Source of the DNA: Crocinitomicaceae bacterium
GTDB lineage: Bacteria; Bacteroidota; Bacteroidia; Flavobacteriales_G; Salibacteraceae
Length of the DNA stretch: 64,000 nt
NCBI GenBank assembly: GCA_002713215.1
Contig: PAVO01000030.1
Location: 62,001-126,000, forward strand
Reading direction: 5' to 3'
Shown: in pieces, positions 2,219-60,228 of the stretch
How the letters are laid out: every line of letters begins with the position of its first letter
How positions within the stretch are numbered: position 1 is the stretch's first letter
Made by a program: the position numbers and the translations under genes
Notes under the pieces: generated by a model
Database searches by the model: none
The model's input: the letters and a program-made list of their open reading frames with translations, nothing else
Told to the model about the DNA's origin: nothing

Positions 2219-2330
2219 GTGAACTACCCAGCGACATCGCTTCACTCTGATCACTGGGCTTCTACAGTCTAGCTTAAAAGCTAGGCTGCGTCTTTTTTCT
2301 CAGATCCACAACCCAACTTCTATAATTTGA
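2219..2330 (-). ncRNA. Probable omega RNA (guide-scaffold RNA) of TnpB
   Basis: In this family the RNA that guides TnpB comes from the 3' end of tnpB through the right end. Here the stretch holds two hairpins (CTAGCTT-AAAGCTAG near 2270 and CCCAG...CTGGG at 2227-2258) and ends GGGTAGTTCAC. The guide would be the bases just beyond 2219. Inferred from family architecture; not shown by expression. Confidence 0.45.
2227..2258. repeat. Right-end hairpin of TnpB element
   Basis: Imperfect palindrome with stem CCCAG/CTGGG and a long partly paired interior; it matches the left-end hairpin at 3577-3608 at most positions. Confidence 0.7.
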
Positions 2331-21014: not shown

Positions 21015-21037
21015 TCCATTGCTCCCAGTGTGCCAAA

Positions 21038-22102
21038 TTAAGACACTTTTTTGATAATCGTAACCGCTTTGAAGTTACCTAATTCATCGCCCACTTCCTT
21101 GACGGCGATACCCGCTTTTTCAGTCAGATGTAAAAGCAGAGCCACATCTGGGTCGTTAATATCTTTAATAAGTACATGCTCTGGGACGCGACGCATTACT
21201 GCACGAGTCGCTTCCGCTACACCTGGCTTGATACGGTTGATTGAGTCAACGTTGTACTTCTCCGCTAAGTCAGTAACCATGTTGTCACACATCGACTTTA
21301 ATGATGCAGGATCGATGGTTGGCTCACTTAACTCATATGACGTTGTTTCCACATGTTTTGAGATGTCATCAACGAATTGCTGAGAGTAGTCGAACTCACG
21401 TAGTTCGTCATAAATGACACAGCCATGGAAGTTGTTTTCTTGCCATACAGAGCGGCTGACCAATCCAGAGATAGGTGCACCCATGATGCCAAAGGGGATA
21501 AGCCAGTCATCGTATGACGCTGTCATCCACGCTTTCCCGCATGGATCCGCCAAAACCACTAACTGTGGTCGTTCTGGGTAACCGCCACGTGCATCTAAAG
21601 AACGTTTAAGCTCATTTGAAATGGCTCCTTTACCGGTCCATCCATCCACGAAGTAGATGTTGCTTTTATCATGGCGAGATTCAATGTAATCCATTGCAAA
21701 TGCATCAAGTCCACGGTCGCGGATGATAGAGATACCGTAATGAGAGACATCGGCACCTCGTCTTAAGAGCGCATCAGTGAGACATGCGCTCATTGGAAGG
21801 CCAGCTCGTACAAGTGACGCCAGTACGATTTCTTTGCCGGCAGCATGCGAAATTAGCTTGTCTGCCAGTTGTTCAACTTCTGCGGCCATACGTGGTGCAC
21901 CAACGCTATGTGCTTTTTGAAATATATCCAGATGAGCAGCACTCGGGGCAGACTCTTTAGATAGCATTTCAGAGTAGTGTTTCTGGCCTGACTGGATCAG
22001 CTCTTCTTTTTTATCGACAGAAGTCATTTCCATCTCAAGCGGGTTAAGAAGAAATGAAACGGGTGTTGTGGTGTATGAGCCACTGAATCCAATTTGTGAC
22101 AT
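21038..22102 (-). CDS. StiP-family / PRTase-like protein of Ter locus
   Basis: 354 aa. Recognised as the family annotated as cysteine protease StiP or PRTase_1 by FSGSY near the start, the SLVRAGLPMSACL segment (about 96-108), YGISIIRDRG, and YFVDGWTGKGAI (150-161), which looks like a PRPP-binding loop. LADPCGKAW supplies a conserved cysteine. Whether it acts as a phosphoribosyltransferase or protease is unsettled. Middle of the ter-linked metabolic operon. Confidence 0.8.
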   Translation of the reverse strand: MSQIGFSGSYTTTPVSFLLNPLEMEMTSVDKKEELIQSGQKHYSEMLSKESAPSAAHLDIFQKAHSVGAPRMAAEVEQLADKLISHAAGKEIVLASLVRAGLPMSACLTDALLRRGADVSHYGISIIRDRGLDAFAMDYIESRHDKSNIYFVDGWTGKGAISNELKRSLDARGGYPERPQLVVLADPCGKAWMTASYDDWLIPFGIMGAPISGLVSRSVWQENNFHGCVIYDELREFDYSQQFVDDISKHVETTSYELSEPTIDPASLKSMCDNMVTDLAEKYNVDSINRIKPGVAEATRAVMRRVPEHVLIKDINDPDVALLLHLTEKAGIAVKEVGDELGNFKAVTIIKKVS

Positions 22103-22115
22103 GGGTTATCCTTAA

Positions 22116-22898
22116 TTATTCTGTTGTTGTGTACTTGCTGGCGATCTGTGACACCTTGGGGAATGCGGCAAAATCACACTCCATCATGAACGGTAAGTCA
22201 GAGTCGCTATCACCTAAGCCCAAGACAAATCGTGCCTCATGGTCCTTAAGGTGATGTTCTAGCAAGTAAGCCACTGCATTTTGTTTGGAAATGAACCGTG
22301 GGATGTAAGCCAGATTATTTCCGTTTAGGTGCGTATAGAAGACCTCTGGGTCAACCAGACCTCGCTTGATGATTTCGTTATTCAAATCAACCAAACTTGC
22401 TTGCTTTGTGTTGTCAGTCACTTTGAATGTGTGGATCAAAGTGATGTCATACTCTTTTGCTTCGCGATAGCGAAACGTAACGTCCGGAAAGTCGCGTAAA
22501 ATAGCGTCATCCGTTGCCAGTTCGGAAAGTGCAAGCGCCAAATTTTTATGGCCTTCATCAAGCGCGTTATATTGCTCGATGATAAGCTCGCGGTACCCGG
22601 GGATAACCTGACCCTGCTTATCAAAGATAAGTGCACCATGACTTACCGCCATGTAAGATGAGAAGGGTAAAACTAATTGTTTTACATTTCTGCTCGTTCT
22701 TGCTGTGTTGACGATGAGTTCCGTTGTTGCATTGAGCCATTCGAACATGTTCGCTTGCTTTTCATTGAGGAAGCTCGCGGGTTCCCCCTCTTTGTTTAAG
22801 GCCCCCACAACAACCGCTTCGCCAACAAGCTTGCGCCTGGTGTTAAAAATGGTGTCATCTAAGTCCGCGAAACAAATCGGTTTGGTGAAATCACTCAC
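22116..22898 (-). CDS. HAD-superfamily hydrolase of Ter locus
   Basis: 260 aa. Motif I DLDDT at 12-16 (D12 nucleophile, D14 general acid) and motif IV GLGDSDSDLPFM at about 226-237, with the Cof-type cap between. It is expected to be a cytoplasmic phosphatase with a small-molecule substrate, probably a phosphorylated intermediate of the pathway encoded alongside. Its start overlaps the end of the PRTase gene by 8 bases. Confidence 0.88.
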   Translation of the reverse strand: MSDFTKPICFADLDDTIFNTRRKLVGEAVVVGALNKEGEPASFLNEKQANMFEWLNATTELIVNTARTSRNVKQLVLPFSSYMAVSHGALIFDKQGQVIPGYRELIIEQYNALDEGHKNLALALSELATDDAILRDFPDVTFRYREAKEYDITLIHTFKVTDNTKQASLVDLNNEIIKRGLVDPEVFYTHLNGNNLAYIPRFISKQNAVAYLLEHHLKDHEARFVLGLGDSDSDLPFMMECDFAAFPKVSQIASKYTTTE

Positions 22899-24033
22899 AG
22901 TAAATTACCTTTGCGTTATGCATTTCAGAAAGAAGCGTTTGATCAAAAAGTTCAGCCGGCGTTTCAGAGCAAATGATTACATGGTCATAGTCTTCAGGTG
23001 AGACATTGTATGCAAACATGTCGATGTTCTGGCCATAGTTGTCCTTTAGCTCAAGCTTACGTTTTATCGCGCCGCCGATTGATACAGGGGATCGAGAAGT
23101 AGAACTAAATGAAACATCCAGCCCCTTTTCTTCAAGGTGTTTGGCGATTAGGTAAGGTTGCCAAGCAAACTCACCGGTACCCAATACCAAGACCCGACCA
23201 GCAATGCCTTCTAAAGCATCGTGCGGGATTTTAAAATCAGAGCCGCCGAATCCCAGTCGACATTCGTTAGGCGGGATTGTGATATCACCCAACGGTAAAG
23301 ACTTGTCATTTTTGTCGATACTGCTGGCATACTGAGACATGTCATGGCCATCAGATTGACTCCATGTAAATGAGCCATCAATAAGAGATACATTGTCGTG
23401 TTCGAGGTGACTGGTACTCTCGTTTTGTGCCAGCAATTGATGAACTGCATTGTTAGACCAATCCGTCAAAGAGACAGTGATGACACGCTCAACATTTGAT
23501 AGCCCAGAGGCAAGTAATGAGCTTGTTAGGTTGAACAGTGTTTTACCTGTCGAAGCTTCATCATCAATCAGCACAAGGACTCTGGTGTTCAGGAATCGCT
23601 GACGAATTACCTCATCGGCTGGCAAGTGTAGGTAGTGTGACTTGGCATGCGAATGCTCTTCTTTAAATTCGCAAAAAACAGGAACATCATTCACCGGGTA
23701 TCGGGTTGATGAGATGTAGACACTGTCCAACCCAAGCTTGAGCAGTGAGTTGTGCACGCCGGCACCAAGCCCAACCGCCGTTTCAGCCATACCAATGCAC
23801 GTTACTTCACCAGTGGCTGTGTCGGCCACACCGGATGCCAACGCATCAAACGTTGCTGTCATGTCAGATGGTTTTACTGGAATGTGACGACCAAGCACTT
23901 TGCTAACAAAGAGGAAAGGGCGTTTTGGGTTTTTGCGCTGGGCAACATCAAGGTACCCATTAAGCACCTCGGTGTCGCACACATGGTTAATTGTCAGTGA
24001 GCCAGCCGGCAGAGAAAATTGACTACTATGCAT
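22891..24033 (-). CDS. Phosphoribosyltransferase-TRSP protein of Ter locus
   Basis: 380 aa from ATG 24033, behind GAGG; it overlaps the DUF1523 gene by 8 bases. Residues 155-167 hold LIDDEASTGKTLF, a PRPP-binding motif. The last third (GRVLVLGTGEFAWQPYLIAKHLEE... SSTSRSPVSIGGAI) matches the TRSP domain that accompanies PRTases in Ter loci. It should transfer or remove a ribose-phosphate in the proposed nucleoside-like pathway. Usually an ATP-grasp partner is near; none is in this window. Confidence 0.82.
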   Translation of the reverse strand: MHSSQFSLPAGSLTINHVCDTEVLNGYLDVAQRKNPKRPFLFVSKVLGRHIPVKPSDMTATFDALASGVADTATGEVTCIGMAETAVGLGAGVHNSLLKLGLDSVYISSTRYPVNDVPVFCEFKEEHSHAKSHYLHLPADEVIRQRFLNTRVLVLIDDEASTGKTLFNLTSSLLASGLSNVERVITVSLTDWSNNAVHQLLAQNESTSHLEHDNVSLIDGSFTWSQSDGHDMSQYASSIDKNDKSLPLGDITIPPNECRLGFGGSDFKIPHDALEGIAGRVLVLGTGEFAWQPYLIAKHLEEKGLDVSFSSTSRSPVSIGGAIKRKLELKDNYGQNIDMFAYNVSPEDYDHVIICSETPAELFDQTLLSEMHNAKVIYCE

Positions 24034-24532
24034 TTTCACGGCCCTCACGGATAAACTTGAAGTAAATCGTGATCCAGAAAACGAAAAACAGCGTGAATAC
24101 CACCCATGCAGTGATAGATACAGGGGCAGATTCGCCTTGGTGTTCTTTCACAGAAAGTGCATTTGGGAACCAACTGAAGAGATTGCTTCGCCACCCGTAA
24201 TACTTCACAGCAACCTGGGTGTTAGAGTCATCGTACCCTTGAGCAATACTGTGCAAATCAGCACTGTTGAACTTGAAGTAAAGTGGCAGTCCCCATCCCG
24301 TGTCTTCATTGCGCATCACCCACGGTGAGCCATCAAGCTCTTTGAGTGAGACGTAATAAACGTCACGAGTACGAGAAGGGTCTTCGCCTTTCACTTTAGT
24401 TTTAGCATCAACTCGCTTAACTTCAGCACCATTAATAGTGCCAACCTTGTAGTGTGGGACTGAGTAACTAATACCGATAAGTGATGTGACGAACAGTATT
24501 GCGAATATCCATTTCTTAATTGATTTAATCAT
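24026..24532 (-). CDS. DUF1523 family membrane protein, 168 aa
   Basis: Starts MIKSIKKWIFAILFVTSLIG behind GGAGGTAATAG. Membrane helices at both ends (residues 9-26 and about 140-160); between them a periplasmic domain with the DUF1523 hallmark RNEDTGWGLPLYFKFNSADL and VAVKYYGWRS. First gene of the minus arm of the Ter locus. The function of this family is unknown; the position suggests the ter response has an envelope component. Confidence 0.8.
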   Translation of the reverse strand: MIKSIKKWIFAILFVTSLIGISYSVPHYKVGTINGAEVKRVDAKTKVKGEDPSRTRDVYYVSLKELDGSPWVMRNEDTGWGLPLYFKFNSADLHSIAQGYDDSNTQVAVKYYGWRSNLFSWFPNALSVKEHQGESAPVSITAWVVFTLFFVFWITIYFKFIREGRENA

Positions 24533-24586
24533 CTATTACCTCCGTTGTAATAGTGATAATTGTAACCATATCAAATAAACAAAGTA

Positions 24587-24604
24587 AACAACAAAAATGC
24601 TGTT
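24587..24604 (-). promoter_or_regulatory. Degenerate operator before DUF1523 operon
   Basis: AACAAC-AAAAAT-GCTGTT, one mismatch in the right arm. On the minus strand TTGTTT is followed 17 bp later by TGGTTA, a poor -10. Confidence 0.45.
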
Positions 24605-24703
24605 ACTTTTAAATTGGAATGAGTCGCAAAAAAATTTTTTCCTCTACTGCACTGAAGAATAACAAAAACCTAAATCGCCAAGATAAAAACATCATAAAAG
24701 TTG

Positions 24704-24732
24704 TTGAGATTGTATTTTTGCGTCGATATACT
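24704..24732 (+). promoter_or_regulatory. Promoter of terZABCDE
   Basis: TTGAGA at 24704-24709, 17-bp spacer, TATACT at 24727-24732. It lacks the palindrome, so the ter genes seem to be controlled apart from the operator regulon. Confidence 0.7.
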
Positions 24733-24786
24733 GATTTACGAAGTCGAGACACGGACAGTTTTGGCAGCCAACAAAAGGAACTTTTT

Positions 24787-25377
24787 ATGGCTATTACATT
24801 GGAAAAGAACAAAACCCTTTCGTTAAAGAAAGTATCCAGCGCTATCGCGCAAATCACTCTCGGTCTAGGTTGGGATCCAGCTTCAGCTAAAAAAGGCGGC
24901 TTCTTCAGCGGCTTGCTTGGCGGCGGCGGTGGTGCCATCGATTTAGATGCGTCTCTTATTCTTCTTGATGCTAATCGCAATGTTGTCGATAAAGTTTGGT
25001 TCCGCAAACTGAAGTCGAACTGCGGTAGCGTAATTCATACTGGCGATAACCGCACAGGTCATGGTGACGGTGATGATGAACAAATCCGCGTCAACCTTGA
25101 GCGCCTTCCAAGCAACGTTGAATACATTGTTGCGACCGTGAATAGCTTCACCGGTCAGACGTTCAATGATGTTGAGAATTGCTACTGTCGAATTACTGAC
25201 CAAAACAATCAGGAATTGGTGAAATACAGCCTGAAAGAACAAAGCGGTCATAAAGCCGTGCTGATCGCTTCAATGGCGCGTAATGGTGGCGATTGGGAGT
25301 TTAAAGCCCTTGGTGAGTTTAGCTCAGGCCAAACGGTCGACGCCTTGATCCCGCAAGCACAAGCGCTAGTAGGCTAA
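24787..25377 (+). CDS. terZ: TerZ-like TerD-domain protein
   Basis: 196 aa from ATG 24787 (MAITLEKNKTLSLKK, AAAGGAAC upstream). A TerD beta-sandwich with the calcium-binding GDNRTGHGDGDDE at 86-98, and a Gly-rich insert at 37-49 (GGFFSGLLGGGGG), seen in TerZ/TerX. Soluble; thought to bind Ca2+ and sense or buffer metal stress. The stop overlaps the terA start (TAATG), so they are coupled. First gene of the plus operon. Confidence 0.88.
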   Translation: MAITLEKNKTLSLKKVSSAIAQITLGLGWDPASAKKGGFFSGLLGGGGGAIDLDASLILLDANRNVVDKVWFRKLKSNCGSVIHTGDNRTGHGDGDDEQIRVNLERLPSNVEYIVATVNSFTGQTFNDVENCYCRITDQNNQELVKYSLKEQSGHKAVLIASMARNGGDWEFKALGEFSSGQTVDALIPQAQALVG

Positions 25378-26513
25378 TGGTTACTTTGTCGCAAGGGGCA
25401 AACGCCCCTTTACCGACAAAGGACTTGGATATCGTCGTGCATTTCGGTGGAAAAGCGGACGTATCCTCTTTCCGACTGTTCGGTAATGGTAAAACCAGAG
25501 CTGATTCTGATTTTGTTTTCTACAACCAGACTGTCAACGACGACAGAACCGTTGAGCTAAATGATGCAGAGCAGCAGCGTAAAGTCTTCAAGTTAAGACT
25601 TGGGCAATTGAAACCTGATGTTGAAAAACTCGCGTTCTCAATGACGGTAGATAAGGGGACAATTTCTAACCTGCAACATGTCGATCTAATGGTAATGGAT
25701 GGGGCTAATCAGCTGATCTCTGCTAAGGTGCCAATGCAAGACCGTATCGAGAAGGCGCTTATATTGTGCGAAGTTTACAAGCGCAATGGCGAATGGAAGA
25801 TTCGGTTTGTTTCACAAGGTTTCAATGGTGGTTTAGAGCCGCTAGCCAAGCACTACGGTGTAGATGTTGAATCAGAGCCTGAAACACCAAATAAAGAGCA
25901 AACCCCAGTTAATCTTTCAAAAGTGACTTTAACAAAATCTCAAAAAACAGTTTCACTTGAAAAGAAGTCGAATCATGCACATGGGAAAATTAAAGTTAAC
26001 TTGAACTGGGATAGAAAGAAGTCTGGGGTTTTGAATGTGTTTGCGGGAGGCTCAAGTGTAGATCTCGATTTAGGAGCATTTGTACGCCTTAAAAACGGTG
26101 AGCAGTTTGTAATCCAAGCATTAGGGCGTTCTTTTGGAAAATACAAAATATCCCCTTTTGTTCAGTTGCAGGGTGACGATCGGACAGGTGATGCTAGTCA
26201 AGGTGAGTGGCTTTGGATTAATGGTGGAAAGTGGGATCAAATTGATGAAGTCCTAATATTCTCATTTATCTATAAGGGTACTCCTAACTGGAAGGGACTG
26301 AATGCAAAAACCACCGTCCTTGTTGATGGACAACCGCCAGTTGAAACAAGTCTTGATGAAGGTAAGTCTGGGTTGTCTTGCTGTGCTATTGCGCGACTAA
26401 TAAATGTTGACTCAAACATTCACATCGAGCGTGTGGAGAAATATTTTCGCGGCATTCAATTTATGGACAAAGCATTTAATTGGGGGTTTCGGTGGCGAGC
26501 CGGATCTAAGTAA
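25377..26513 (+). CDS. terA: TerA tellurium-resistance protein
   Basis: 378 aa, close to the usual 385 for TerA. Two TerD-like halves joined by a linker near 160-180 (ESEPETPNKEQTP). The C-terminal half has QGDDRTGDASQGEWLWINGGKWDQ, typical of TerA. The start ATG overlaps terZ's stop. It works with TerZ, TerB, TerC and TerD at the membrane; tellurite resistance is a readout rather than the proven natural job. Confidence 0.88.
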   Translation: MVTLSQGANAPLPTKDLDIVVHFGGKADVSSFRLFGNGKTRADSDFVFYNQTVNDDRTVELNDAEQQRKVFKLRLGQLKPDVEKLAFSMTVDKGTISNLQHVDLMVMDGANQLISAKVPMQDRIEKALILCEVYKRNGEWKIRFVSQGFNGGLEPLAKHYGVDVESEPETPNKEQTPVNLSKVTLTKSQKTVSLEKKSNHAHGKIKVNLNWDRKKSGVLNVFAGGSSVDLDLGAFVRLKNGEQFVIQALGRSFGKYKISPFVQLQGDDRTGDASQGEWLWINGGKWDQIDEVLIFSFIYKGTPNWKGLNAKTTVLVDGQPPVETSLDEGKSGLSCCAIARLINVDSNIHIERVEKYFRGIQFMDKAFNWGFRWRAGSK

Positions 26514-26538
26514 AAGTAAACACAAAGGAAGTGTAATT

Positions 26539-26979
26539 ATGAGTTTTTGGGAAAAGGCTAAGGCCAAATTCAATGAGACATCTGAGTCTCTTCAAACCAG
26601 TCTGAAAAAGTTTCAAAACAAAGAAATGCTTAACGCCATTGTGGGTGGTGCAGTTTATGTATCAGCAGCAGATGGTGATATTAGCTCTGACGAAAAACAG
26701 AAGCTGATGGGCTTCCTGGAGCGCTCAGAAGAGCTGAAAGTGTTCGAGACTGGCGAAGTGATCAAGGTGTTCAAGTCTCTGGCTGACAACTTTGATTTCG
26801 ATGTTGATGTGGGTCGTGGTGAGTGTATGAAGCACATCGTCAAGATCAAAGGTGATGAATCGCAGTCGCAACTGCTTATTCAGGTGGTTGTTGCCATCGC
26901 GAAAAGCGACGGTGATTTTGATGATGACGAAAAAGCTGCTGTTGATGCAATCGCAAAAGCTTTGGGTATCCAACTTTAG
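26539..26979 (+). CDS. terB: TerB tellurite-resistance protein
   Basis: 146 aa (TerB usually about 150). Starts MSFWEKAKAKFNE behind AAGGAAGTG. Two helical halves, each with an acidic motif (YVSAADGDISSDEKQ and IAKSDGDFDDDEK) that binds metal in TerB proteins. Soluble and associated with TerC at the inner membrane in known systems. Adjacent genes are terA upstream and terC downstream. Confidence 0.9.
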   Translation: MSFWEKAKAKFNETSESLQTSLKKFQNKEMLNAIVGGAVYVSAADGDISSDEKQKLMGFLERSEELKVFETGEVIKVFKSLADNFDFDVDVGRGECMKHIVKIKGDESQSQLLIQVVVAIAKSDGDFDDDEKAAVDAIAKALGIQL

Positions 26980-26985
26980 GGCCTG

Positions 26986-28014
26986 ATGCTGATGACGACT
27001 GAAATCGCAATCGTATTCGTGGCAACATTGTTGTTGGGGTTCTTCCTCGACAACTTTGCTCACCGCGAAAATAAGCCAGTATCACTTGGCTCCGCTGTAG
27101 GTTGGTCAATTTTTTGGATAGTTGTTGCTATCGGATTTGGCGTTTACCTGCATTTTAGACACAGTCCAGAAATGGCGAGCTTGTACTTTACCGGTTACGC
27201 ATTAGAGAAGGCGCTGTCTGTCGATAACTTGTTCGTCATCATGGCGGTGTTCTCATGGTTCGCAATCCCTGATCACCTTCGACACAGAGTATTGTTCTGG
27301 GGAATCATTGGGGCAGTGGTATTCCGTGGCATTTTCGTTGCCATTGGTACCAGTCTTCTTCACTTGGGTCCATGGGTTGAGTTGCTATTCGCGGGTATCG
27401 TTATTTACACAGCGTTCCTTATGTTAAAGGCCGGTGATGATGACGATGAAATCGAAGATTACTCAACGCATCCTGCTTATCGATTCGTGCAGAAGTTCAT
27501 GCCTGTTTGGCCAAAATTACACGGCAAAAACTTCATCGTTACACGTCGTGAAATTGAATCAATGCCTGAGAACGAAAGACCTGAAGGTTGGTCACTGCCA
27601 GCTAAAGGCTTCCGATTTGCAACCCCTATGCTCCTGTGTTTGGCGGTTATCGAGTTCAGTGACGTTATGTTTGCGTTTGACTCTGTGCCGGCAGTGATCG
27701 CGGTGAGTAAAGAGCCGTTGATTGTTTACTCTGCAATGATGTTCGCAATCCTTGGTCTGCGTAGCTTGTACTTCGTACTTGAGGCAATGAAAAAGTACCT
27801 TGTTCACTTAGAGAAAGCTGTGATTGTGCTGCTGTTCTACATCGGCGCGAAACTTGGCCTGAATGCAAGTGAGCCAATGCTAAACCATGGCATTCACATT
27901 GATTCTGGTACATCACTGCTAGTTGTTCTGGCAATTCTAACCCTTGGGGTAGTGGCGTCATTTATCTTTCCAGAGAAAGACGATGAGGCCGCAGAAGCTC
28001 CATCAAATAAGTAA
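26986..28014 (+). CDS. terC: TerC integral membrane protein
   Basis: 342 aa (known TerC 346). About nine membrane helices; the charged TerC signatures are visible: EKALSVDNLFV near 70 and ALIEFSDVMFAFDSVPAV near 225 (here VIEFSDVMFAFDSVPAV). A second ATG six bases in is possible. The protein anchors the Ter complex and has been linked to metal-ion transport. The cytoplasmic C-terminus is short. Confidence 0.93.
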   Translation: MLMTTEIAIVFVATLLLGFFLDNFAHRENKPVSLGSAVGWSIFWIVVAIGFGVYLHFRHSPEMASLYFTGYALEKALSVDNLFVIMAVFSWFAIPDHLRHRVLFWGIIGAVVFRGIFVAIGTSLLHLGPWVELLFAGIVIYTAFLMLKAGDDDDEIEDYSTHPAYRFVQKFMPVWPKLHGKNFIVTRREIESMPENERPEGWSLPAKGFRFATPMLLCLAVIEFSDVMFAFDSVPAVIAVSKEPLIVYSAMMFAILGLRSLYFVLEAMKKYLVHLEKAVIVLLFYIGAKLGLNASEPMLNHGIHIDSGTSLLVVLAILTLGVVASFIFPEKDDEAAEAPSNK

Positions 28015-28059
28015 GTCTCAGTGACGAGACGTAGTTCAACCACTAAAAGGAATTAACCT

Positions 28060-28638
28060 ATGACTTTATCTTTGAAAAAAGGCGGCAATTTAAGCCTGTC
28101 TAAAGAAGCTCCAGCGATGACCGTTGCTCATATCGGTTTAGGTTGGGACGTTCGCCGCACAGACGGTGTTGATTATGACCTTGATGCTTCTTTGTTCCTG
28201 CTTGATGCGCAGGGCAAAATTATCGGCGAAGACGGCTTTATTTTCTACAACCAAAAAGAAAGCACGTGTGGTTCAATCGTTCACCAGGGCGACAACCGTA
28301 CCGGTGACGGCGACGGTGACGACGAAGTGGTGAAAGTTGTTCTGGCGAAAGTGCCAGAAAAAATTCAAAAGATCGTTGTTGCAGTAACCATTCACGAAGC
28401 AGAAAAGCATGGCCTTAACTTTGGTCAAATTGAAAACGCGTTCGTACGTGTTGTTGATGATGCGAACCAAAACGAAGTGGCGCGCTACGACCTGTCTGAA
28501 GACGCAAGCACTGAAACAGCCATGCTGTTCGCTGAACTGTATCGCAATAACGGTGAGTGGAAGTTCAGAGCGGTAGGTCAAGGCTATGCTGGTGGCCTGG
28601 GTGCGATGGCTCGCAGCTACGGCCTGGATATCAAGTAA
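28060..28638 (+). CDS. terD: TerD stress protein
   Basis: 192 aa, the family's length. Starts MTLSLKKGGNLSLSKEAP with AAAGGAA before it. The calcium motif GDNRTGDGDGDDE is at 77-89, followed by the IHEAEKHGLNFGQIENAFVRV segment. Cytosolic Ca2+-binding beta-sandwich. TerD and TerE are the products most required for resistance in known ter operons. The 90 bases after it contain GGGGAG...CTCCCC, which may moderate terE expression. Confidence 0.93.
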   Translation: MTLSLKKGGNLSLSKEAPAMTVAHIGLGWDVRRTDGVDYDLDASLFLLDAQGKIIGEDGFIFYNQKESTCGSIVHQGDNRTGDGDGDDEVVKVVLAKVPEKIQKIVVAVTIHEAEKHGLNFGQIENAFVRVVDDANQNEVARYDLSEDASTETAMLFAELYRNNGEWKFRAVGQGYAGGLGAMARSYGLDIK

Positions 28639-28727
28639 GTAAACGAACCGGGGAGGGAACTCCCCAACCCCTAAAGAAAAGCTCGGATGCTTTTCAATAA
28701 CATTTAACAAAACTCATGGAGAGAACT

Positions 28728-29306
28728 ATGCCTGTATCATTGCAAAAAGGCGGCAACGTAAACCTAACTAAAGAAGCACCAGAAATGAAGCTTGCGACAA
28801 TCGGCTTGGGCTGGGACGTTCGTAAGACTGACGGTGTTTCTTTCGACCTTGATGCTTCTGCATTTATGCTGGACGCTGAAGGTAAAATTCTGGGTGATGC
28901 CTCTTTCATCTTCTTTAACAACAAAGTTTCACCTTGTGGCGCTGTTGTTCATAATGGTGACAACCGTACTGGTGAAGGTGATGGTGATGACGAGTCAATC
29001 GCTGTTACGCTGGCTGACTTGCCTGAAGCCGTTGCTAAGATCATGGTGGGTGTAACCATTCACGAAGCTGACGAAAATGGTCAAAACTTTGGCCAGGTGT
29101 CAAACGCTTATATTCGCGTTGTTGATGAGACGAACGCTACTGAAGTTGCGCGCTACGATCTGTCTGAAGACGCAAGCACTGAAACCGCTATGGTATTCGG
29201 TGAGCTGTATCGCCATAACGGCGACTGGAAGTTCAAAGCTGTTGGTCAGGGCTACGCTGGTGGCCTGAAGGCGATGGCTCAAGATGTTGGCGTAAATATC
29301 GGCTAA
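28728..29306 (+). CDS. terE: TerE stress protein
   Basis: 192 aa from ATG 28728 ([25 protein letters not shown] before it); the frame extends 12 bases upstream but that start is poorer. A close paralogue of TerD with [13 protein letters not shown] at 77-89. Last gene of terZABCDE and followed by a clear terminator. No terF or terW is present in the window. Confidence 0.92.
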
Positions 29307-29323
29307 GAAAGCGCTGATAAAAG

Positions 29324-29353
29324 AAAAGGACAGTTTGATACTGTCCTTTTTTT
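29324..29353 (+). terminator. Terminator of terZABCDE
   Basis: AAAGGACAG-TTTGATA-CTGTCCTTTTTTT directly after terE. Confidence 0.9.
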
Positions 29354-29373
29354 ATGCCTATTTTTTTATTGAA

Positions 29374-29916
29374 TCACTGGTTTTCCAATCGCCACTTTGC
29401 AAACGCTGAGTTTACCATTTCATCGAGCTCTGCATCGCGCTTTTCTTTCAGTGATGGATGATCGCTAAACTCATCAGCGCTACCAGTGCATTCCATGTTG
29501 TACTTACCAATGTTGCCACTCAATGCCGAGTTGCCGGCATCACGTCGAACCATGACTTGCAGACAGATGGTCTGGCGCTCACCTTTAGGTGGGCTCACTG
29601 AGCGATCATAAACTGCGTGCCACACCTCGCGAACAAAATAAGTGTCAGTAACTTCAATCGAATGCCCGCGATGATCGACAGTATGAGGATTCTCGTTCAT
29701 TTTCTGCCAAGGGCCAAAGTTGATGCCCGTGTTTAATAGAACGTCAGCTTCGACAACAGTAGGGGCTTTAACATTCATGTCTCGAACACCCTCAATAGGT
29801 GCAGCTTTGACAACGTCCTCCTGCTTAAGCGTGTCGGGCTCGGCACCCTTGTCAGATTCAGAGCAACCAGAAAGCATCATGGCAGCGCATGTGGCGGTAA
29901 GTATGAATAGTTTCAT
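29374..29916 (-). CDS. Lipoprotein, 180 aa
   Basis: Starts MKLFILTATCAAMMLSGCSES, with lipobox LSGC and cleavage before Cys18; Ser after Cys suggests outer-membrane sorting. The mature part is hydrophilic with one further pair of cysteines (TICLQVM, NMECTGS). Monocistronic, with an operator at 29971-29988. No known family. Confidence 0.75.
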   Translation of the reverse strand: MKLFILTATCAAMMLSGCSESDKGAEPDTLKQEDVVKAAPIEGVRDMNVKAPTVVEADVLLNTGINFGPWQKMNENPHTVDHRGHSIEVTDTYFVREVWHAVYDRSVSPPKGERQTICLQVMVRRDAGNSALSGNIGKYNMECTGSADEFSDHPSLKEKRDAELDEMVNSAFAKWRLENQ

Positions 29917-29970
29917 CGTCTTCCCTTAATTGAGTTTGTTTTCTTTACTTTAACATTTAGAAAAATACAC

Positions 29971-29988
29971 AACAACACTTTTGTTGTA
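29971..29988. promoter_or_regulatory. Operator between divergent lipoprotein genes
   Basis: AACAAC-ACTTTT-GTTGTA. On the minus strand the -10 is weak (TTAAAG). On the plus strand it lies just upstream of a separate promoter at 29997-30025. Confidence 0.7.
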
Positions 29989-29996
29989 ACTGGTTA

Positions 29997-30025
29997 TTGA
30001 TTGAATTTTTTACTTTTGGTATGAT
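29997..30025 (+). promoter_or_regulatory. Promoter of plus-strand lipoprotein
   Basis: TTGATT at 29997-30002, 17-bp spacer, TATGAT at 30020-30025 preceded by TGG. Confidence 0.7.
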
Positions 30026-41683: not shown

Positions 41684-41773
41684 TGGTGAGGAAGCCGGGA
41701 ATCGAACCCAGATTACCAATATCAACACGAAGTTCTCAGGTTTATCACCTTACCCACTTGGTCTACAACCCCC
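41684..41773 (-). tRNA. tRNA-like gene, amino acid not assignable
   Basis: 3' half clear: T arm CTGGG-TTCGATT-CCCGG, acceptor 3' strand CTTCCTC, discriminator A and encoded CCA. D arm ACC-AAGTGGGTAA-GGT fits. The 5' acceptor strand (GGGGGTT) pairs only partly and no anticodon stem with U33 can be drawn. About 90 nt, as in class II tRNAs. Possibly degenerate. Confidence 0.5.
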
Positions 41774-41780
41774 AAAGTAA

Positions 41781-41874
41781 TGGTGCTTTCGTCGGGAGTC
41801 GAACCCAAGTCTCGCCGGATTAACATGGAGTATCCTCCAAAACCTGTGCAGCTCTGCCATTGAGCTACGAAAGC
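41781..41874 (-). tRNA. tRNA-like gene with about 19 extra bases, amino acid not assignable
   Basis: Acceptor GCTTTCG/CGAAAGC pairs perfectly, D arm GCTC-AATGGCA-GAGC and T arm TTGGG-TTCGACT-CCCGA fold, CCA encoded. Between D and T arms are 42 nt instead of about 23, and no standard anticodon arm forms; GGAG-GATA-CTCC is one hairpin there. May be degenerate or carry an insertion. Confidence 0.6.
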
Positions 41875-50662: not shown

Positions 50663-52093
50663 TTATTTTTCTGACTTCTTCTTCATGTGTTTCTTGCACT
50701 CGGTGATCCAGCCTTCGCGCCTGGCAGCAAGGTAGGCACCGTTCTCAACCTTTTTCCATTCTTGAATATCGCTAACCTGCTTCGCAGATTCGATGCAAGC
50801 CTCTTTATTCCACTTATAAGGGCTTGATGCACGTTTCATGTGCTTTGTGCACTTCTTGAACCAGTTATTGCGTTTGGCAGCCGCATACGCCCCTCTGCTA
50901 TGCTCCATCCATTCAGTGATCGTCTTAAACTTCTTGGCTGATTCGATACAAGCAGCTTCCGTCCAGCGAGAAGATATGCTGGGCATCAGTTTATCGAGCC
51001 ACCCCTTTTGTTTGGCTCTAAAGTAAGTTGAACTGGCGCCTCGCATCCACTCGGTTCTGGTTTTGAAACGCTTGGAGTCTGCGACGCAGTCTTTTTTCAA
51101 AATTCGATTCCGCGTTTTGTTTTTCGCCGGCATGAGTTCATCTATCCAGCCATTTTGTAATGCTGCGCGGTAAGAACCGTGGTGTCCCTTAGTCCACTCA
51201 GTACGAGATTTGAACTTTTTGGCGTGCTTCTTACATTCAGCTTTAGTCCAGACTTTTTTGGATGATGCGCGCGCCGGCATGTGCGCCGTGCAACTTTCCA
51301 TCCACCCATATTGATAAGCGGCAGAGTAAGAACTCAGATTACCTTCTCGCCATGCCTTACGATCAGGGTACTTTTTGGCTATTTTAATGCACTCGTCTTC
51401 TGTCCACTGTTTTCGAGGTTTCGGTGTCGCCATATGAGCAACGCACTCATTAAACCACCCCATACGTCTGGCGAGTCGATATGATTGAGTGTGACCCTGA
51501 CTCCATTCCGTTCTTGTATTGAACGCTTTGGCATGCTTAAGGCACTCTTTTTTAGTCATGTCTAACTTGGTTGTTTCGTAGGGCTTGGGCATATGGGCAA
51601 CACATTCATTGAACCAGCCCATTTTCTTCGAATAGTGGTAGGTTGCAGCGTGGCCGCGACTCCATGCGCTTCTGGTCTCGAATTCTTTAGCGTGCGAGAG
51701 ACACTCTTCCTTCGTCCACTGGTTGTACTGGCGCACATTCATATGCTCAATGCATTGCTCGTAGATACCATGAGTCTTGGCATCTTTAAGCGACTGAGGA
51801 TGTATATTTCGCCATTCAGTAATTGTTTTGCAGCGTTGTGCGAACTTAAGGCATTGCTTAGGGGAGTGGGTCGTCGTCTTTTTCTTAGGCTTAGAACGTG
51901 TGTTTTTGGTCTTTGGTAAACGTTTTGGTTTAAAGTGGAGGCGGAATTCAACTATCCAATGCGATTTAACTGCGACTTCATGTGCAGCGGGACTTTTTTC
52001 CTGCCATTCATCTTCGCTAGTGTATTTCTTAGCATCCTTTAAACATGTTTGGTACGTCCATTGATTTACATCTGAACTAGTTTGTGGTGCCAC
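50663..52093 (-). CDS. Tandem W-C-A-W-Y-GW-C-HM repeat protein, 476 aa
   Basis: Starts at GTG 52093 (MAPQTSSD). Nine repeats of about 45-50 residues, each W(T)xxxC...AK.(F/Y)xTRTEW..G...SY..A...GW...C..HM, joined by basic linkers (PKPRK, ARASSKK). Repeat 1 is degenerate. Such repeats are usually found as single or few copies fused to phage or bacterial endonucleases; no nuclease domain is present here. A DNA-recognition role is inferred, not shown. It is strongly basic. Own promoter with a different palindrome (52150-52167). Confidence 0.8.
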   Translation of the reverse strand: MAPQTSSDVNQWTYQTCLKDAKKYTSEDEWQEKSPAAHEVAVKSHWIVEFRLHFKPKRLPKTKNTRSKPKKKTTTHSPKQCLKFAQRCKTITEWRNIHPQSLKDAKTHGIYEQCIEHMNVRQYNQWTKEECLSHAKEFETRSAWSRGHAATYHYSKKMGWFNECVAHMPKPYETTKLDMTKKECLKHAKAFNTRTEWSQGHTQSYRLARRMGWFNECVAHMATPKPRKQWTEDECIKIAKKYPDRKAWREGNLSSYSAAYQYGWMESCTAHMPARASSKKVWTKAECKKHAKKFKSRTEWTKGHHGSYRAALQNGWIDELMPAKNKTRNRILKKDCVADSKRFKTRTEWMRGASSTYFRAKQKGWLDKLMPSISSRWTEAACIESAKKFKTITEWMEHSRGAYAAAKRNNWFKKCTKHMKRASSPYKWNKEACIESAKQVSDIQEWKKVENGAYLAARREGWITECKKHMKKKSEK

Positions 52094-52136
52094 GGTTCAT
52101 GCCCTGAATTAAAAAAATAATTGTTTTAATTAGGAC

Positions 52137-52167
52137 ATCATATGCGAAATTTTGGCAAATGCCAAAA
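52137..52167 (-). promoter_or_regulatory. Promoter with a second type of palindrome
   Basis: TTTTGGCA-AA-TGCCAAAA at 52150-52167; on the minus strand its arm gives -35 TTGGCA (52160-52165), 17-bp spacer, TATGAT (52137-52142). Same design as the AACAAC sites, different sequence. Confidence 0.7.
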
Positions 52168-52202
52168 GTGGATTCCCGGGCATAAAATACCCGGGGATTA
52201 TT

Positions 52203-53786
52203 CTAGGCCTGCAAGTTAAGTCCCACGGCCGCTCTACACTCTTCTAGCCATCGATAATTACTGGCAGCGGAATAGGCAGCTGCGTGTTTTTCTCGGAACT
52301 GGCGAATGCTTTCACAGTTTGACGCGAGCTTTACACATGTTTCCAGTGTCCATTTTAACTTTCGAGACATATGAGCAACACACTTGTCAAAATACCCATA
52401 CCGCTTAGCGGCCTTATAGGCGATGTATTCAGCGTCAAGCCACTCGCTTCGCGTTTGGTATTTTGCAGCGGACTCCATGCATTTTTCTTCTGTCCATTTA
52501 CGAGCGCGAGGTTTCATCGTTCTAAGTGGCTTCATGTGCGAGCAACATTCATCCATCCAGCCTTCACGGCTAGCAGCTTGGTAAACGAGGTTGTCACCCT
52601 TAGCCCATTTGGTACGGGAACTAAAATTTGCAGCAGACGCTTTACATACTTCAAGGGTATAGGTGCGCTTGATTGGCTTCCTTTTCATGTGCGAGCAACA
52701 TTCATCCATCCAGCCCTTGATCTGCGCTTGGCGATAGTACACAGGGTCACCTTTTTTCCACTCGTCACGAGTGTTGTACTGCTCTGCGCTTTCTTTACAC
52801 TCATCAAAAGTTAGTTTTACTTTTAAACGGTCAAACCCTGGGATCATGTGTTCACAGCATAGTTCATACCATCCGAATTTTATTGCTGCGTTTCTGGCAC
52901 TCGGGTCGCCAATTCGCCAATCGAGTCGGGTTTCGTAATTCTCGGCGGATGCAATGCACTCCTGCTTTGAATATGATTTATACGATCGCTTAGGGATGAG
53001 AGTCGTCATGTGCTCAGTACATTTTTTAAACCATCCATATTGCAATGCTGCTTTGTAGCTTTCAAAGTCAGACTCAAGCCAGATTTTTTGTGAAGTGTGT
53101 TGTTTTGCTGAAGCAAGACATATTTCTAGCGTCCATTTCGGCTCGAAACCATCACTTTGTAAAGTGCCTCCACGTTGCATGTGTGCCGTACACTGTTCTA
53201 TCCATTTGTGTCGGCATGCAGATTGGTATGCGCCGCGTCCATTTTTTCGCCAATCTTTAAGTACGCTGTACTTTTTTGCATCTTCAATGCAGCGTTCAAG
53301 TGTCCAGTAAAGCTGCTTTCCTTCATGTGGCGTGAAGTGCTTCGAGCAGTCTTCAATCCAATCGTATTGCATGGCAGCATAATAAGCTGAGTGTTCAGAG
53401 AGGCGCCAGTCCTTAAGTGATTCAAACCGACGGGCTGAGCGCAAACATCGCATTTTGTACCACGTTCGTTCAACCATGCTTTGATCAGCAAAATGAAATG
53501 TACATTCCTCGAACCACTCTTGCACTTGAGCATGAGAAAAAGCGTCCGGATTCCCGTGGCGCCATGCGTATATTGTTTTAAATTGCTTTGCGTCTTCAAT
53601 GCAAGTGACTTTGTCCCAACACTCGGGAGTTTGAATGGCATCAATACAGGTATCAAGCCAACCTTCTCGTTTGGCTTTACTGTGGATGTTTGGGTGGTTA
53701 TGTTTCCATGCGGCTAGGGTGAAGTATGGTTTGGTGCTCTTCACGCATTCCGAAACCGTCATGTTATGCGTAGATAAACGTCTCAT
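52203..53786 (-). CDS. Tandem W-C-A-W-Y-GW-C-HM repeat protein, 527 aa
   Basis: Starts MRRLSTHNMTVSECVKS behind AAAGGATT. Ten repeats of the same unit as the neighbour, best kept in repeats 6-9 (KKGDPVYYRQAQIKGWMDECCSHM; AKGDNLVYQAASREGWMDECCSHM). Each unit has a conserved Trp, Cys, Tyr and GW(M/L)xEC. No nuclease, helicase or other domain. Upstream of the 476-aa paralogue, 109 bases apart. Function unknown; the tandem array suggests recognition of a long or repetitive ligand. Confidence 0.8.
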   Translation of the reverse strand: MRRLSTHNMTVSECVKSTKPYFTLAAWKHNHPNIHSKAKREGWLDTCIDAIQTPECWDKVTCIEDAKQFKTIYAWRHGNPDAFSHAQVQEWFEECTFHFADQSMVERTWYKMRCLRSARRFESLKDWRLSEHSAYYAAMQYDWIEDCSKHFTPHEGKQLYWTLERCIEDAKKYSVLKDWRKNGRGAYQSACRHKWIEQCTAHMQRGGTLQSDGFEPKWTLEICLASAKQHTSQKIWLESDFESYKAALQYGWFKKCTEHMTTLIPKRSYKSYSKQECIASAENYETRLDWRIGDPSARNAAIKFGWYELCCEHMIPGFDRLKVKLTFDECKESAEQYNTRDEWKKGDPVYYRQAQIKGWMDECCSHMKRKPIKRTYTLEVCKASAANFSSRTKWAKGDNLVYQAASREGWMDECCSHMKPLRTMKPRARKWTEEKCMESAAKYQTRSEWLDAEYIAYKAAKRYGYFDKCVAHMSRKLKWTLETCVKLASNCESIRQFREKHAAAYSAASNYRWLEECRAAVGLNLQA

Positions 53787-53860: not shown

Positions 53861-54388
53861 CTATGTATTACAGTAACAACCTTTTGCGTCACTGACGATT
53901 GCAGCAACAGGAAATTGACGCGTAGCATGTCCGATAAAAGGCTCGACAATGCCTTCGTTTTGGCTGCAACTGATCCCGCTTGAGTAGGGGCCCAGGTATA
54001 TGAGCTTCTCATCCTGGTCAAATACAGCAACGGCCGGCAGGGAGGGGATTTTACTCTGCATGCTTTTACTAATTTCGCCAACGACGATGTTACTCAACCC
54101 TTTGTTTTTAGCCAACGACTTAACCGACTCAATGTGAGGCTGAGCAACAATTTGACACCAACAACCTCTGTTTTCAAAGTGAACTACGGTAAGGGAAAGA
54201 TCGCCCACTTCACGTTTGAGGCTATCTGTGAAAGAAGAGTCAAACCCCGTATTCATACTGAGGGTGTAAAGTGCGCCATTCGGGTCAAACTCACTGAGTG
54301 AGTCTTGTCTAATGATGAAGAGAAAAAGGGCGCAAAGAGCAAACCACGAGGTTACCCCAACGCCCCACAATGTACGAGAACTCATCAA
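53861..54388 (-). CDS. Thioredoxin-like membrane-anchored protein, 175 aa
   Basis: Starts [28 protein letters not shown]: a membrane anchor (residues 8-27). The periplasmic domain has [14 protein letters not shown], an active-site-like CxC at the end of a strand, and [21 protein letters not shown], as in thioredoxin-fold DUF6436-type proteins; the C-terminus GCYCNT holds another pair. Possible disulfide or metal handling. Coupled to the chemotaxis receptor gene (4-base overlap). Confidence 0.65.
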
Positions 54389-55866
54389 CTCTTAAACTTA
54401 GTTAATTGCTGTTCCAGTGAGCTGACAATGGCTTTTAACTCCATCATTGCTTCATGGCTTTCGTTGACGTCCAATATTTGCTCTTTGGATGATTCGTTGA
54501 GCTGGTGGGCTGATTGAGCAATATCACTGGATACCGTGGTTTGCTCTTCAGCAGCAGTCGCGACAGAATCGATATTAGAGTTCAACAGATTGGTGTTATC
54601 GTATATCTGGCTCATTGCCTCTGACGCCACACCGGAGGCATCAGCACTCCCTTTAGCGTCAGATAAACACGTTGCCATCATTCCGACAGACCTTTTAGAA
54701 TCTTCAATCAGTGCGGTTGTGATTGCAGTGATATGTTCAGCTTGCTCACTGGTATTCCTAGCCAGAGTTCTCACTTCATCTGCAACAACGGCAAATCCTC
54801 TGCCGTGTTCGCCCGCTCGGGCAGATTCAATGGCAGCATTTAGCGCCAATAGGTTTGTCTGATCAGATATGCCCATGATAGCAGCCATGGTTTTATCAAT
54901 TTCGGTGCACTTTGACGACAGGTCTTCAATTATTGACGATGCAGACTGTAAGCGATGATAAAGTTGGCCTATATCTTTGGTAGACTTGTCGATTGTGTCT
55001 TTTGCTGTCTGAGTGTTCGATTGATTATCACCAGATAACGAGTTTGCGTCAGCAGCACGATGAGCAACGTCACGAGAGGTAATGGACATTTGCTCAATGG
55101 CAGTGGCAATTCCTTCAATTTGAGAAACATTGCCTTGAACAGAGTGGATTAACTTTTCAGAGACGGTCTCGACTTTCCCCGATAATAATCCAGCCTGTTT
55201 GCTGGTCAGTTTAGCTTCATCGACAATCGACTTAAATGTGGAGATGAGGTTGCGGAAGTTATCCAGTTCCCGAATGCTTGAATCAATATCTACATTAAGA
55301 TTAATCGCGCTTTTATCTTCAATGATGGTATCCACTGCATGAGCGAGCGCATAGGCGGACTTTGCTTCACGGTGACTGGTTGCAGAAACATACATGATCA
55401 CAGCACCTTCAGCGATAGCGAAACAAGAGTGAATAACCAAAACACCCCAGCTGGCGTGGCCGTCTTCAAATATCCTTAACTCAGAGCCGCCCATTTGCAA
55501 AATGAAGAATGAGAAATGGTGTATAGCGATCGTGATGACACTGGCCAATACCACTTTCCAATCTCGATAAAAGCCGAGGAAGGCAAGCGTGGCAAATACT
55601 TCGAAATGAAGTTCTGTCATGCCTGCCGTCATTTGGATATGCAATGCTGTGAAAAGCTGTGTGGCAATACCAACGGTAATGCGGGTTAATTGTGAACCTG
55701 GTTTTATAAAGATCATGGCCATTGGAACACTCATGATGAGTAAGCTACCTACTATGGCCTGAATGTGTAATCCAGTGAAAAATGCAATAATGAGCGAAAC
55801 AACAAACTGTGTTAGCAATACGCCAATAAACACTTTGTTCGCCTGGGATATCCATGGGTAATTCAT
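54385..55866 (-). CDS. Methyl-accepting chemotaxis protein, six-TM type, 493 aa
   Basis: Six membrane helices in the first 160 residues with membrane-edge histidines (H76, H87, H116, H117, H146); no separate periplasmic ligand domain and no clear HAMP. The signalling hairpin is intact: [20 protein letters not shown] (335-354) and [18 protein letters not shown] (355-372). It reports a signal to CheA and so steers the flagella. It is under an AACAAC operator, so the element controls host movement together with its own genes. Sensed signal unknown. Confidence 0.92.
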
Positions 55867-58796: not shown

Positions 58797-58836
58797 GTTT
58801 GTTATACCTGGTTGATACATTTTAGGAACCCTAAAC

Positions 58837-58863
58837 GAAAAAACCCACCTCCGAAGAGGTGGG
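58837..58863 (-). terminator. Terminator of the permuted tmRNA gene
   Basis: Minus strand CCCACCTC-TTCG-GAGGTGGGTTTTTTCG closes the coding piece. Confidence 0.9.
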
Positions 58864-59200
58864 CTATCAGTCTTTCTGGTGCTAGGCACTGACGACCCCG
58901 CACAAAGCCGGTTATTAAGCGGCTAGACGTGCACCGTAAACATTGTCGTTTGCAGTTATTTTAGGTTTAGCTTTTTACGGGGCAACTCCCCCCACGTTGT
59001 CAGCGCCGCTTCATGATCCTGTCGAAGCCAGTACACCCCCATCATAAAAGCTCTGATAGTTCATAAACAGGAATATTTACGTAGATAAGTGTCTTACTGT
59101 TCACTTGCCTACAACCTGCTCCAGAACGCTTATGGTGGAGGTGAGGGGAGTCGAACCCCTGTCCAAAAACAATTCACATTGCGTCATACAACGATATTGA
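58837..59200 (-). ncRNA. ssrA: Circularly permuted (two-piece) tmRNA
   Basis: On the minus strand the tRNA-like 3' half comes first: T arm AGGGG-TTCGACT-CCCCT (59144-59160), acceptor strand CACCTCC, A and CCA (59133-59143). After a 92-base spacer the 5' half begins with GGGGGTG at 59040, which pairs with CACCTCC. It continues CTGGCTTCGACAGG, a pseudoknot (GGGGAGTTGCCCC), GTAAAAAGC, and resume codon GCA at 58953. The tag reads ANDNVYGARLAA, then two TAA. It rescues stalled ribosomes and marks proteins for degradation. Promoter 59207-59247 is an AACAAC-type operator. Confidence 0.93.
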
Positions 59201-59206
59201 AGTGCT

Positions 59207-59247
59207 ATAATAACACGGCGAAATTAAAATACAACCTATATGTTGTA
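59207..59247 (-). promoter_or_regulatory. Operator-promoter of permuted tmRNA
   Basis: TACAAC-CTATAT-GTTGTA at 59230-59247; TTGTAT, 16-bp spacer, TATTAT (-10 at 59207-59212). Diverges from the exonuclease promoter. Confidence 0.8.
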
Positions 59248-59295: not shown

Positions 59296-59337
59296 CACAA
59301 CATAATTGTTGTTTTTATAGATAAAGTTAGGTATCAT
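59296..59337 (+). promoter_or_regulatory. Operator-promoter of exonuclease
   Basis: CACAAC-ATAATT-GTTGTT at 59296-59313; here on the plus strand TTGTTT (59309-59314), 17-bp spacer, TATCAT (59332-59337). Confidence 0.8.
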
Positions 59338-59367: not shown

Positions 59368-60228
59368 ATGACACAGCAAGAAAAACCGTTAATCGTACTA
59401 GTCGATACGCATAACATCATGTACCGGATGTTTCATACTCGTCCGCCGATGTTCTCAAAAGGCATGCAACAGCGTATTGAAACGGTAACCGCTGTGTTGT
59501 CCTCAATTAAGAGTCTCATCAATGTAACTCCATTGGGAAAAGCCGAGCGCGTTATAGCTGTAGCGGATTCAGGTAAAAAGAATCATCGTCACTTGCTGTC
59601 GCTTGAATACAAAGCGAACCGTGAACCAATGCCTGAAGAACTTGCAACACAGGCCCCGATACTTTACCGAGCACTCCATGCATACGGCGTCCCCGTCCTT
59701 GTTAAGAAAGACGTAGAAGCTGATGATGGCATTGGTATGCTGGCTGAACACTACGTAAGAAAAGGCTACCGCGTCATGATTTATACAACGGACAAAGACA
59801 TGTTCCAGTTGGTTAATGACGACATCTGCCTGTTTAATCCGCGCCAGAAAAAGCTCTATAAGCATGAGGACGTTGTGGAGAAGCTGGGAGTCAAACCTGA
59901 ACAGGTTATCGATTTCCTTGCATTGAAAGGGGATAGTACGGATGGTATTACCGGTATCGATAAGGTGGGTGATGTTAAGGCTGCTCAATTGCTCAGTGAA
60001 TATGAAAGCATAGAGGGGCTTGTGCTTGGCGCTCATGAGATAAAAGGAAAACTGGGTGAGAATGTTAGAGCAGGACTGTCGCGTCTCTTCCTTAACAAGC
60101 AATTGACCCGTATCATCAATGATCCTGAACACCTGACGCCGAAAGAAATTCAGTATGTAGAGTGTCACGGCTATATACCTGAGATGTGTCAGCAGATGAA
60201 GAATGAATACGGCCTACCTCTAGGCTGA
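59368..60228 (+). CDS. 5'-3' exonuclease (FEN/PolI N-terminal type), 286 aa
   Basis: All metal-binding residues of the PolI-type 5' nuclease are visible: D13 (LVDTHN), D67, Y81/R85 (LEYKANR), EADD at 117-120, TTDKD at 140-144 and LKGDSTDGITGIDKVG with its two Asp residues. Stand-alone versions occur in phages (T5, T7) and in plasmids for removing RNA primers and flaps. Length is typical. Divergent from the tmRNA with paired operators; ends in a terminator. Confidence 0.92.
   Translation: MTQQEKPLIVLVDTHNIMYRMFHTRPPMFSKGMQQRIETVTAVLSSIKSLINVTPLGKAERVIAVADSGKKNHRHLLSLEYKANREPMPEELATQAPILYRALHAYGVPVLVKKDVEADDGIGMLAEHYVRKGYRVMIYTTDKDMFQLVNDDICLFNPRQKKLYKHEDVVEKLGVKPEQVIDFLALKGDSTDGITGIDKVGDVKAAQLLSEYESIEGLVLGAHEIKGKLGENVRAGLSRLFLNKQLTRIINDPEHLTPKEIQYVECHGYIPEMCQQMKNEYGLPLG

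Follow-up and report, generated by a model that had tools for sequence, protein, structure and literature searches.

A permuted, two-piece tmRNA gene and a putative SmpB partner on an apparent gammaproteobacterial megaplasmid

The window, that is, the whole stretch of 64 kb of DNA analysed in this study, corresponds to C30:62001-126000, and C30 is a contig of 156 kb belonging to a bin of 56 contigs and 5.03 Mb. When the window was searched with ARAGORN, a permuted tmRNA gene was called at 58824-59225 on the minus strand, and its tag was read as ANDNVYGARLAA followed by two stops. In Rfam, the tmRNA_permuted model RF04321 matched 58915-59193(-) with 121.6 bits (E 3e-23), and the beta_tmRNA model RF01850 matched 58841-59247(-) with 104.8 bits over positions 1-331 of its 331 positions. 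Both scores exceed the curated cut-offs of these models, which are 47 (the gathering score) for RF04321 and 84 for RF01850. It was clear from ARAGORN, Rfam and the sequence itself that the 3' half, which bears the acceptor end, precedes the 5' half within one gene. The first-pass annotation had proposed a two-piece permuted tmRNA at 58837-59247 and had suggested a covariance model of permuted genes as the check; ARAGORN and the two Rfam models agree with this proposal and place the gene on the minus strand. The features of the locus are listed in Table 1.

Table 1. Features of the tmRNA locus and its surroundings (positions in the window)
Feature	Position	Strand	Basis
Palindromic operator of the tmRNA promoter, TACAACATATAGGTTGTA	59230..59247	-	PWM, 17.6 bits
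Extended -10 element TGTTATTAT, 14 bp downstream of the operator	59207..59215	-	Sequence
Acceptor piece, transcribed first: P2 strand CGUUGU (starting at 59193), T arm, CACCUCC, encoded CCA (ending at 59133)	59133..59193	-	RF04321, RF01850, sequence
Intervening segment of 92 nt, removal by processing expected	59041..59132	-	Sequence
Coding piece: GGGGGUG, D-like loop, P2 strand, pseudoknot region, tag frame, downstream structure	58866..59040 (3' end approximate)	-	ARAGORN, Rfam, sequence
Tag reading frame: resume GCA, ANDNVYGARLAA, TAA TAA	58912..58953	-	ARAGORN, sequence
Intrinsic terminator CCCACCTC-TTCG-GAGGTGGG-TTTTTT	58838..58863	-	-15.6 kcal/mol
Second operator copy, divergent, preceding the 5'-3' exonuclease gene	59297..59312	+	C30:121297
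Neighbour gene, 5'-3' exonuclease, 286 aa, weak homologue on pAMCP48-600	59368..60228	+	phrog_107

The two acceptor strands, GGGGGUG (59040-59034) and CACCUCC (59143-59137), pair at 7 of 7 positions, and the only G-U pair is pair 3. A G-U at the third pair of the acceptor stem (G3-U70) is the identity pair of alanyl-tRNA synthetase (AlaRS), and it was present in all 54 of the other permuted tmRNA genes scored. The acceptor stem and the T arm of the two-piece molecule were also recovered by cofolding. The spacer between the pieces measures 4-237 nt across 54 viral and plasmid permuted tmRNA genes, and 92 nt in the gene of the window. A resume codon, a tag frame closed by stops and a hydrophobic end with AA are all present; the tag ends with LAA and retains the AAND--Y part. 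In E. coli, the LAA end of the tag is read by ClpX and the AAND--Y part by SspB. This anatomy, from the order of the CACCTCC strand and CCA before the GGGGGTG strand to the gap, the pairing, the tag and its two stops, had been described in the first-pass annotation and was confirmed. It had also been claimed that the tmRNA has an operator-promoter and a terminator of its own, and these were found at 59247-59207, directly upstream of the gene, and at 58863-58838, respectively.

One could regard such a gene as a scar of site-specific integration or as a decaying copy without function, since tmRNA genes are common integration sites (PMC11915505) and the element discussed below encodes a tyrosine integrase. 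We consider this explanation highly improbable, because the gene is complete, with a promoter, both halves, a tag, two stops and a terminator. In addition, the integrase is located about 30 kb from the tmRNA gene, and neither Rfam nor ARAGORN detected duplicated tmRNA ends in the window.

The operator of the tmRNA promoter overlaps the -35 position. By its PWM score it is weaker than most copies, the best of which reach about 28 bits. C30 (156 kb) has 94 sites of an 18-bp palindrome, AACAACANNNNTGTTGTT, and at most of them an extended -10 element, TGGTATNAT, follows after 14-15 bp; in shuffled sequence, the number of sites combining the palindrome with the extended -10 was zero. Copies in the window are found, for example, at 57238, 59230, 59296 and 62339. 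The same palindrome occurs on C4, C7, C9 and C1, is almost missing from the other contigs of the bin, and is absent from the Alteromonas megaplasmid pAMCP48-600. On the element formed by these contigs, an operator copy lies 20-110 bp upstream of 12-29% of the genes. We therefore regard the operator as a mark of an element-wide regulon and not as a switch specific to the tmRNA. Given this overlap with the -35 position, repression would be the most economical interpretation, and a palindrome-binding repressor may control the promoters of the element. Candidates for such a protein are an HTH protein of 459 aa (C30:152311-153690) and an XRE protein (C4:168637-168942).

The bin also contains a standard one-piece tmRNA gene, on C25, and its tag, read from the sequence, is GDNNYALAA, which we take to be Bacteroidota-like. 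This one-piece tmRNA belongs to another bacterium than the host of the element. The tetranucleotide usage of C30 showed a correlation of only 0.41 with C25, while the values were 0.98 with C4, 0.96 with C7 and 0.88 with the first 20 kb of C9. In composition, then, C30 fits C4, C7 and C9 and not C25, and it does not belong to the bin's main genome. Among the 34 other genomes of the family to which the bin was assigned, no permuted tmRNA was found.

A protein of 1265 aa encoded on C7 had only two plasmid matches, both on 600-kb chromids of Alteromonas mediterranea. When C7 was compared with pAMCP48-600, 158 of the 371 predicted proteins matched, mostly in the same order, so that the two are largely collinear; matches to this plasmid were also found for C4 (49/249), C9 (15/37), C1 (13/23) and C30 (31/261). 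The contigs of the element encode gyrase/topoisomerase A and B, NAD ligase, a DNA polymerase III clamp, a DnaE-like polymerase and polysaccharide genes. C9 and C1 share an exact overlap of 99 bp, and C7/C30 and C1/C4 have near-identical end sequences, which is what a single replicon of about 793 kb would show after breaking at repeats. Thus C30, C4, C7, C9 and C1 appear to form a single megaplasmid of a marine-type gammaproteobacterium, chromid-like and a relative of pAMCP48-600, and its contigs appear to have been binned with an unrelated Bacteroidota-like genome. The kinship with this Alteromonas plasmid bears out the earlier description of a gammaproteobacterial element of mobile type.

The dense small genes and repeated promoters had suggested a giant phage. 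This candidate was rejected, since no member of the large terminase family PF03237, the terminase family searched, was found anywhere in the bin, and since a known megaplasmid matches C7 collinearly. The DnaN and DnaE-like proteins of the element had no relatives when queried against IMG/VR.

The five contigs carry 47 tRNA genes, which cover 19 standard amino acids and include a SeC-type (tca) anticodon; a tRNA-His was not found across the five contigs. The genes include arrays of 37 at C7:352533-371509 and 7 at C9:32656-34050. In the window, tRNA-like sequences missed by ARAGORN lie at 41690-41874(-), with an Rfam tRNA match at 41784-41874 that has an enlarged anticodon region and a degenerate tRNA-like stretch ending in CACCA near 41690(-). 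Other genes of the window include an IS605-type TnpB (OrfB) at 2320-3507, a tellurite-type stress cluster at 20049-30014 (StiP/PELOTA, PRTase_2/TRSP, TerD, TerC) and a methyl-accepting chemotaxis receptor at 54385-55866. Two paralogous proteins of 476 and 527 aa at 50663-53786 have relatives among the repeated hypothetical proteins of Vibrio, Burkholderia and Rhizobium phages (phrog_20046).

Two SmpB genes were found when all contigs of the bin were searched, one on C24, in the main genome, and one at C4:169342-169770(-). The C4 protein (157 aa) matched PF01668 with 192.6 bits over positions 1-142 of 143, and it aligned with E. coli SmpB along its length, including the C-terminal tail, with 53.8% identity. 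The basic tail of the C4 protein is DKRNDAKDRDWSREQARLLKK. In a tree of SmpB proteins this copy grouped with gamma- and betaproteobacterial copies, with weak resolution that gives no finer placement. The C4 smpB gene lies directly behind an operator, AACAACATATATGTTGTT, and a promoter, TTTGATACAAT, which is the same promoter type as that of the tmRNA, and its neighbours are hypothetical genes of the element type. Since 12-29% of the genes of the element have such an operator nearby, the operator common to the tmRNA and smpB is not specific to the pair.

Because this SmpB is found on contigs of the element, the element has both halves of trans-translation, and judging from the genes it very likely carries a complete, self-regulated pair. 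The tmRNA gene is on C30 and smpB is on C4, so we only infer that the two share one replicon. The separate contigs would also suit another explanation, in which the element's tmRNA is an extra gene dose that works mainly with the SmpB and proteases of the host, and the smpB of C4 is a passenger without relation to it or sits on another replicon. The phage Melnitz (PMC9004378) and the plasmid pMP7017 (PMC10832533) point the same way, as both have a tmRNA and no SmpB of their own is noted in the accessible parts of these papers. We nevertheless think this explanation unlikely, since C4 shares the operator, the composition and homology to pAMCP48-600 with C30. A search of plasmids with the SmpB of the element gave 65 records, and six of 0.8-1.2 Mb were checked for tmRNA. 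A tmRNA was found in 6/6 (five one-piece, one permuted), which also argues against an extra dose; as the six were chosen for carrying SmpB, this value reflects co-occurrence among SmpB carriers and not prevalence.

We therefore favour, with a probability of roughly three in four, the reading that the gene is a working permuted ssrA on a chromid-like gammaproteobacterial megaplasmid, paired with the element's own SmpB for trans-translation. The earlier suggestion that the element may replace or alter host ribosome rescue holds only in part: the element-borne SmpB speaks for supplementing or altering it, and the idea of replacement gained no support.

The tag ANDNVYGARLAA was not found in the viral and genome collections scanned, and a gapped search for the permuted-tmRNA pattern gave no matches. 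The tag and gapped-pattern searches thus gave no close relative that shares the tag. The nearest permuted sequences compared with the tmRNA of the window had only 64-68% identity, and when the tmRNA region was compared with phages and plasmids by blastn, only short matches in the T arm were returned.

A tag seen nowhere else in these collections, on a gene under the operator of the element, might suggest that the pair redirects the quality control of the host. That is, its own control and its own tag would alter which chains are degraded and would favour the element during transfer or stress. However, the tag retains the normal determinants of degradation, the LAA end and AAND--Y, so the ordinary proteases would be expected to act on the tagged proteins; no sign of selectivity was seen, and we regard redirection as improbable.

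Under the favoured reading of a working pair, the following course can be proposed. RNA polymerase would initiate at the operator-type promoter, immediately ahead of the P2 strand, and would stop at the terminator. The tRNA-processing enzymes of the cell would then excise the spacer, and the resulting acceptor and tag-coding pieces would be held together by the acceptor stem and P2. AlaRS would charge this molecule by way of G3-U70, SmpB would bring the charged tmRNA to stalled ribosomes, and the nascent chains would be tagged with (A)ANDNVYGARLAA and degraded, with ClpX reading the LAA end and SspB the AAND--Y part. The tmRNA, SmpB and the 47 tRNAs may thus form a portable kit for the support of translation, which would be switched together with the rest of the element by the palindrome-binding protein. 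The benefit is probably that ribosomes are kept free during expression of a foreign replicon of 0.8 Mb that has codon and tRNA needs of its own, and it would be greatest just after entry into a new host.

A more far-reaching proposal is that the tmRNA and SmpB form a dedicated, co-regulated pair of mixed ancestry, with a permuted beta-type RNA and a gamma-type SmpB, which acts independently of the host's system and belongs to a wider class of giant plasmids with a tRNA/tmRNA/SmpB kit under one element-encoded regulator. We put this forward tentatively and consider it possible but rather doubtful. The compact RNA-protein pair, the unusual tag and the element-wide operator make it testable whether giant plasmids guard their own translation or redirect the degradation of host proteins.

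Compared with the Rfam families RF04321 and RF01850, the tmRNA of the window has the same gene order, G3-U70 acceptor stem, T arm, CCA, spacer, P2 between the pieces and LAA end of the tag, and it matches the beta model RF01850 from end to end. It differs in being located on an Alteromonadales-type megaplasmid and not on a betaproteobacterial chromosome, and in its tag, which was not found elsewhere. The first-pass annotation had overstated the rarity of such genes. Permuted tmRNA genes were found in dozens of IMG/VR contigs, mobile permuted tmRNAs are described in phages, where two-piece forms make up 53 of 133 unique phage tmRNA structures (PMC9004378), and a megaplasmid tmRNA has been published (PMC10832533). 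The Methylophilales phage Melnitz, likewise a mobile element, encodes a permuted tmRNA behind an early-type promoter of its own (PMC9004378). It is a phage that carries a glutamine riboswitch, and its tmRNA is of the alphaproteobacterial type, whereas the element here is plasmid-like, with SmpB and an operator regulon. Huge phages with tmRNA and SmpB are also known, and "analogous suites" have been noted in large putative plasmids (PMC7162821).

Among plasmids, the Bifidobacterium megaplasmid pMP7017 has a highly transcribed tmRNA beside plasmid tRNAs, and an earlier Curtobacterium case is cited in the same paper (PMC10832533). pMP7017 differs from the element here in that its tmRNA is one-piece, and SmpB is not mentioned in the text of that paper. 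The chromid pAMCP48-600 has conjugation genes, tRNAs, topoisomerase IV, ligase and a polysaccharide cluster (PMC5217437). It shares with the element a backbone collinear with C7, topoisomerase IV, ligase, the DNA polymerase clamp, the polysaccharide cluster and tRNAs; no tmRNA and no homologue of the element's SmpB were found on it.

The closest parallels are the six SmpB-bearing megaplasmids. In five of the six (Pseudomonas, Variovorax) the tmRNA lies within about 600 bp of smpB, and in Vibrio it is distant. Plasmid 2 of Variovorax sp. SRS16 (NZ_LR594667), a replicon of 801 kb, also combines a permuted tmRNA with SmpB and tRNA arrays; it differs in the adjacency of tmRNA and smpB, in the tag ANESNFRLAA and in its betaproteobacterial host, to which the permuted form is native. 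Pseudomonas pMPPla107, pBASL58, pPL1 and FeN3W and Vibrio pVP-19-VB00998 likewise have tmRNA and SmpB on replicons of 0.88-1.17 Mb, with tRNA arrays where seen, but their tmRNA is one-piece. Unusual tags occur on these plasmids: ANDNAFEGARLAA on pBASL58, which resembles the tag ANDNVYGARLAA of the element, ANNDNFDAPVALAA on pMPPla107, ANESNFRLAA in Variovorax and ANDEHFTAIAA in Vibrio.

In the literature covered, which included few subscription journals, we found no account of a permuted tmRNA together with SmpB on a gammaproteobacterial megaplasmid. The presence of tmRNA on all SmpB-bearing megaplasmids checked suggests that giant plasmids repeatedly carry ribosome rescue as cargo, and the present case adds an Alteromonas-type gammaproteobacterial element with the permuted form. 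In the six megaplasmids the form of the tmRNA follows the lineage of the host, and the Alteromonadales-type element with its permuted form is the exception. The general idea thus has precedents on other giant plasmids and in phages, whereas the particular form and wiring found here are new; what is added is the partner SmpB, the regulon marked by the operator and the location on a megaplasmid.
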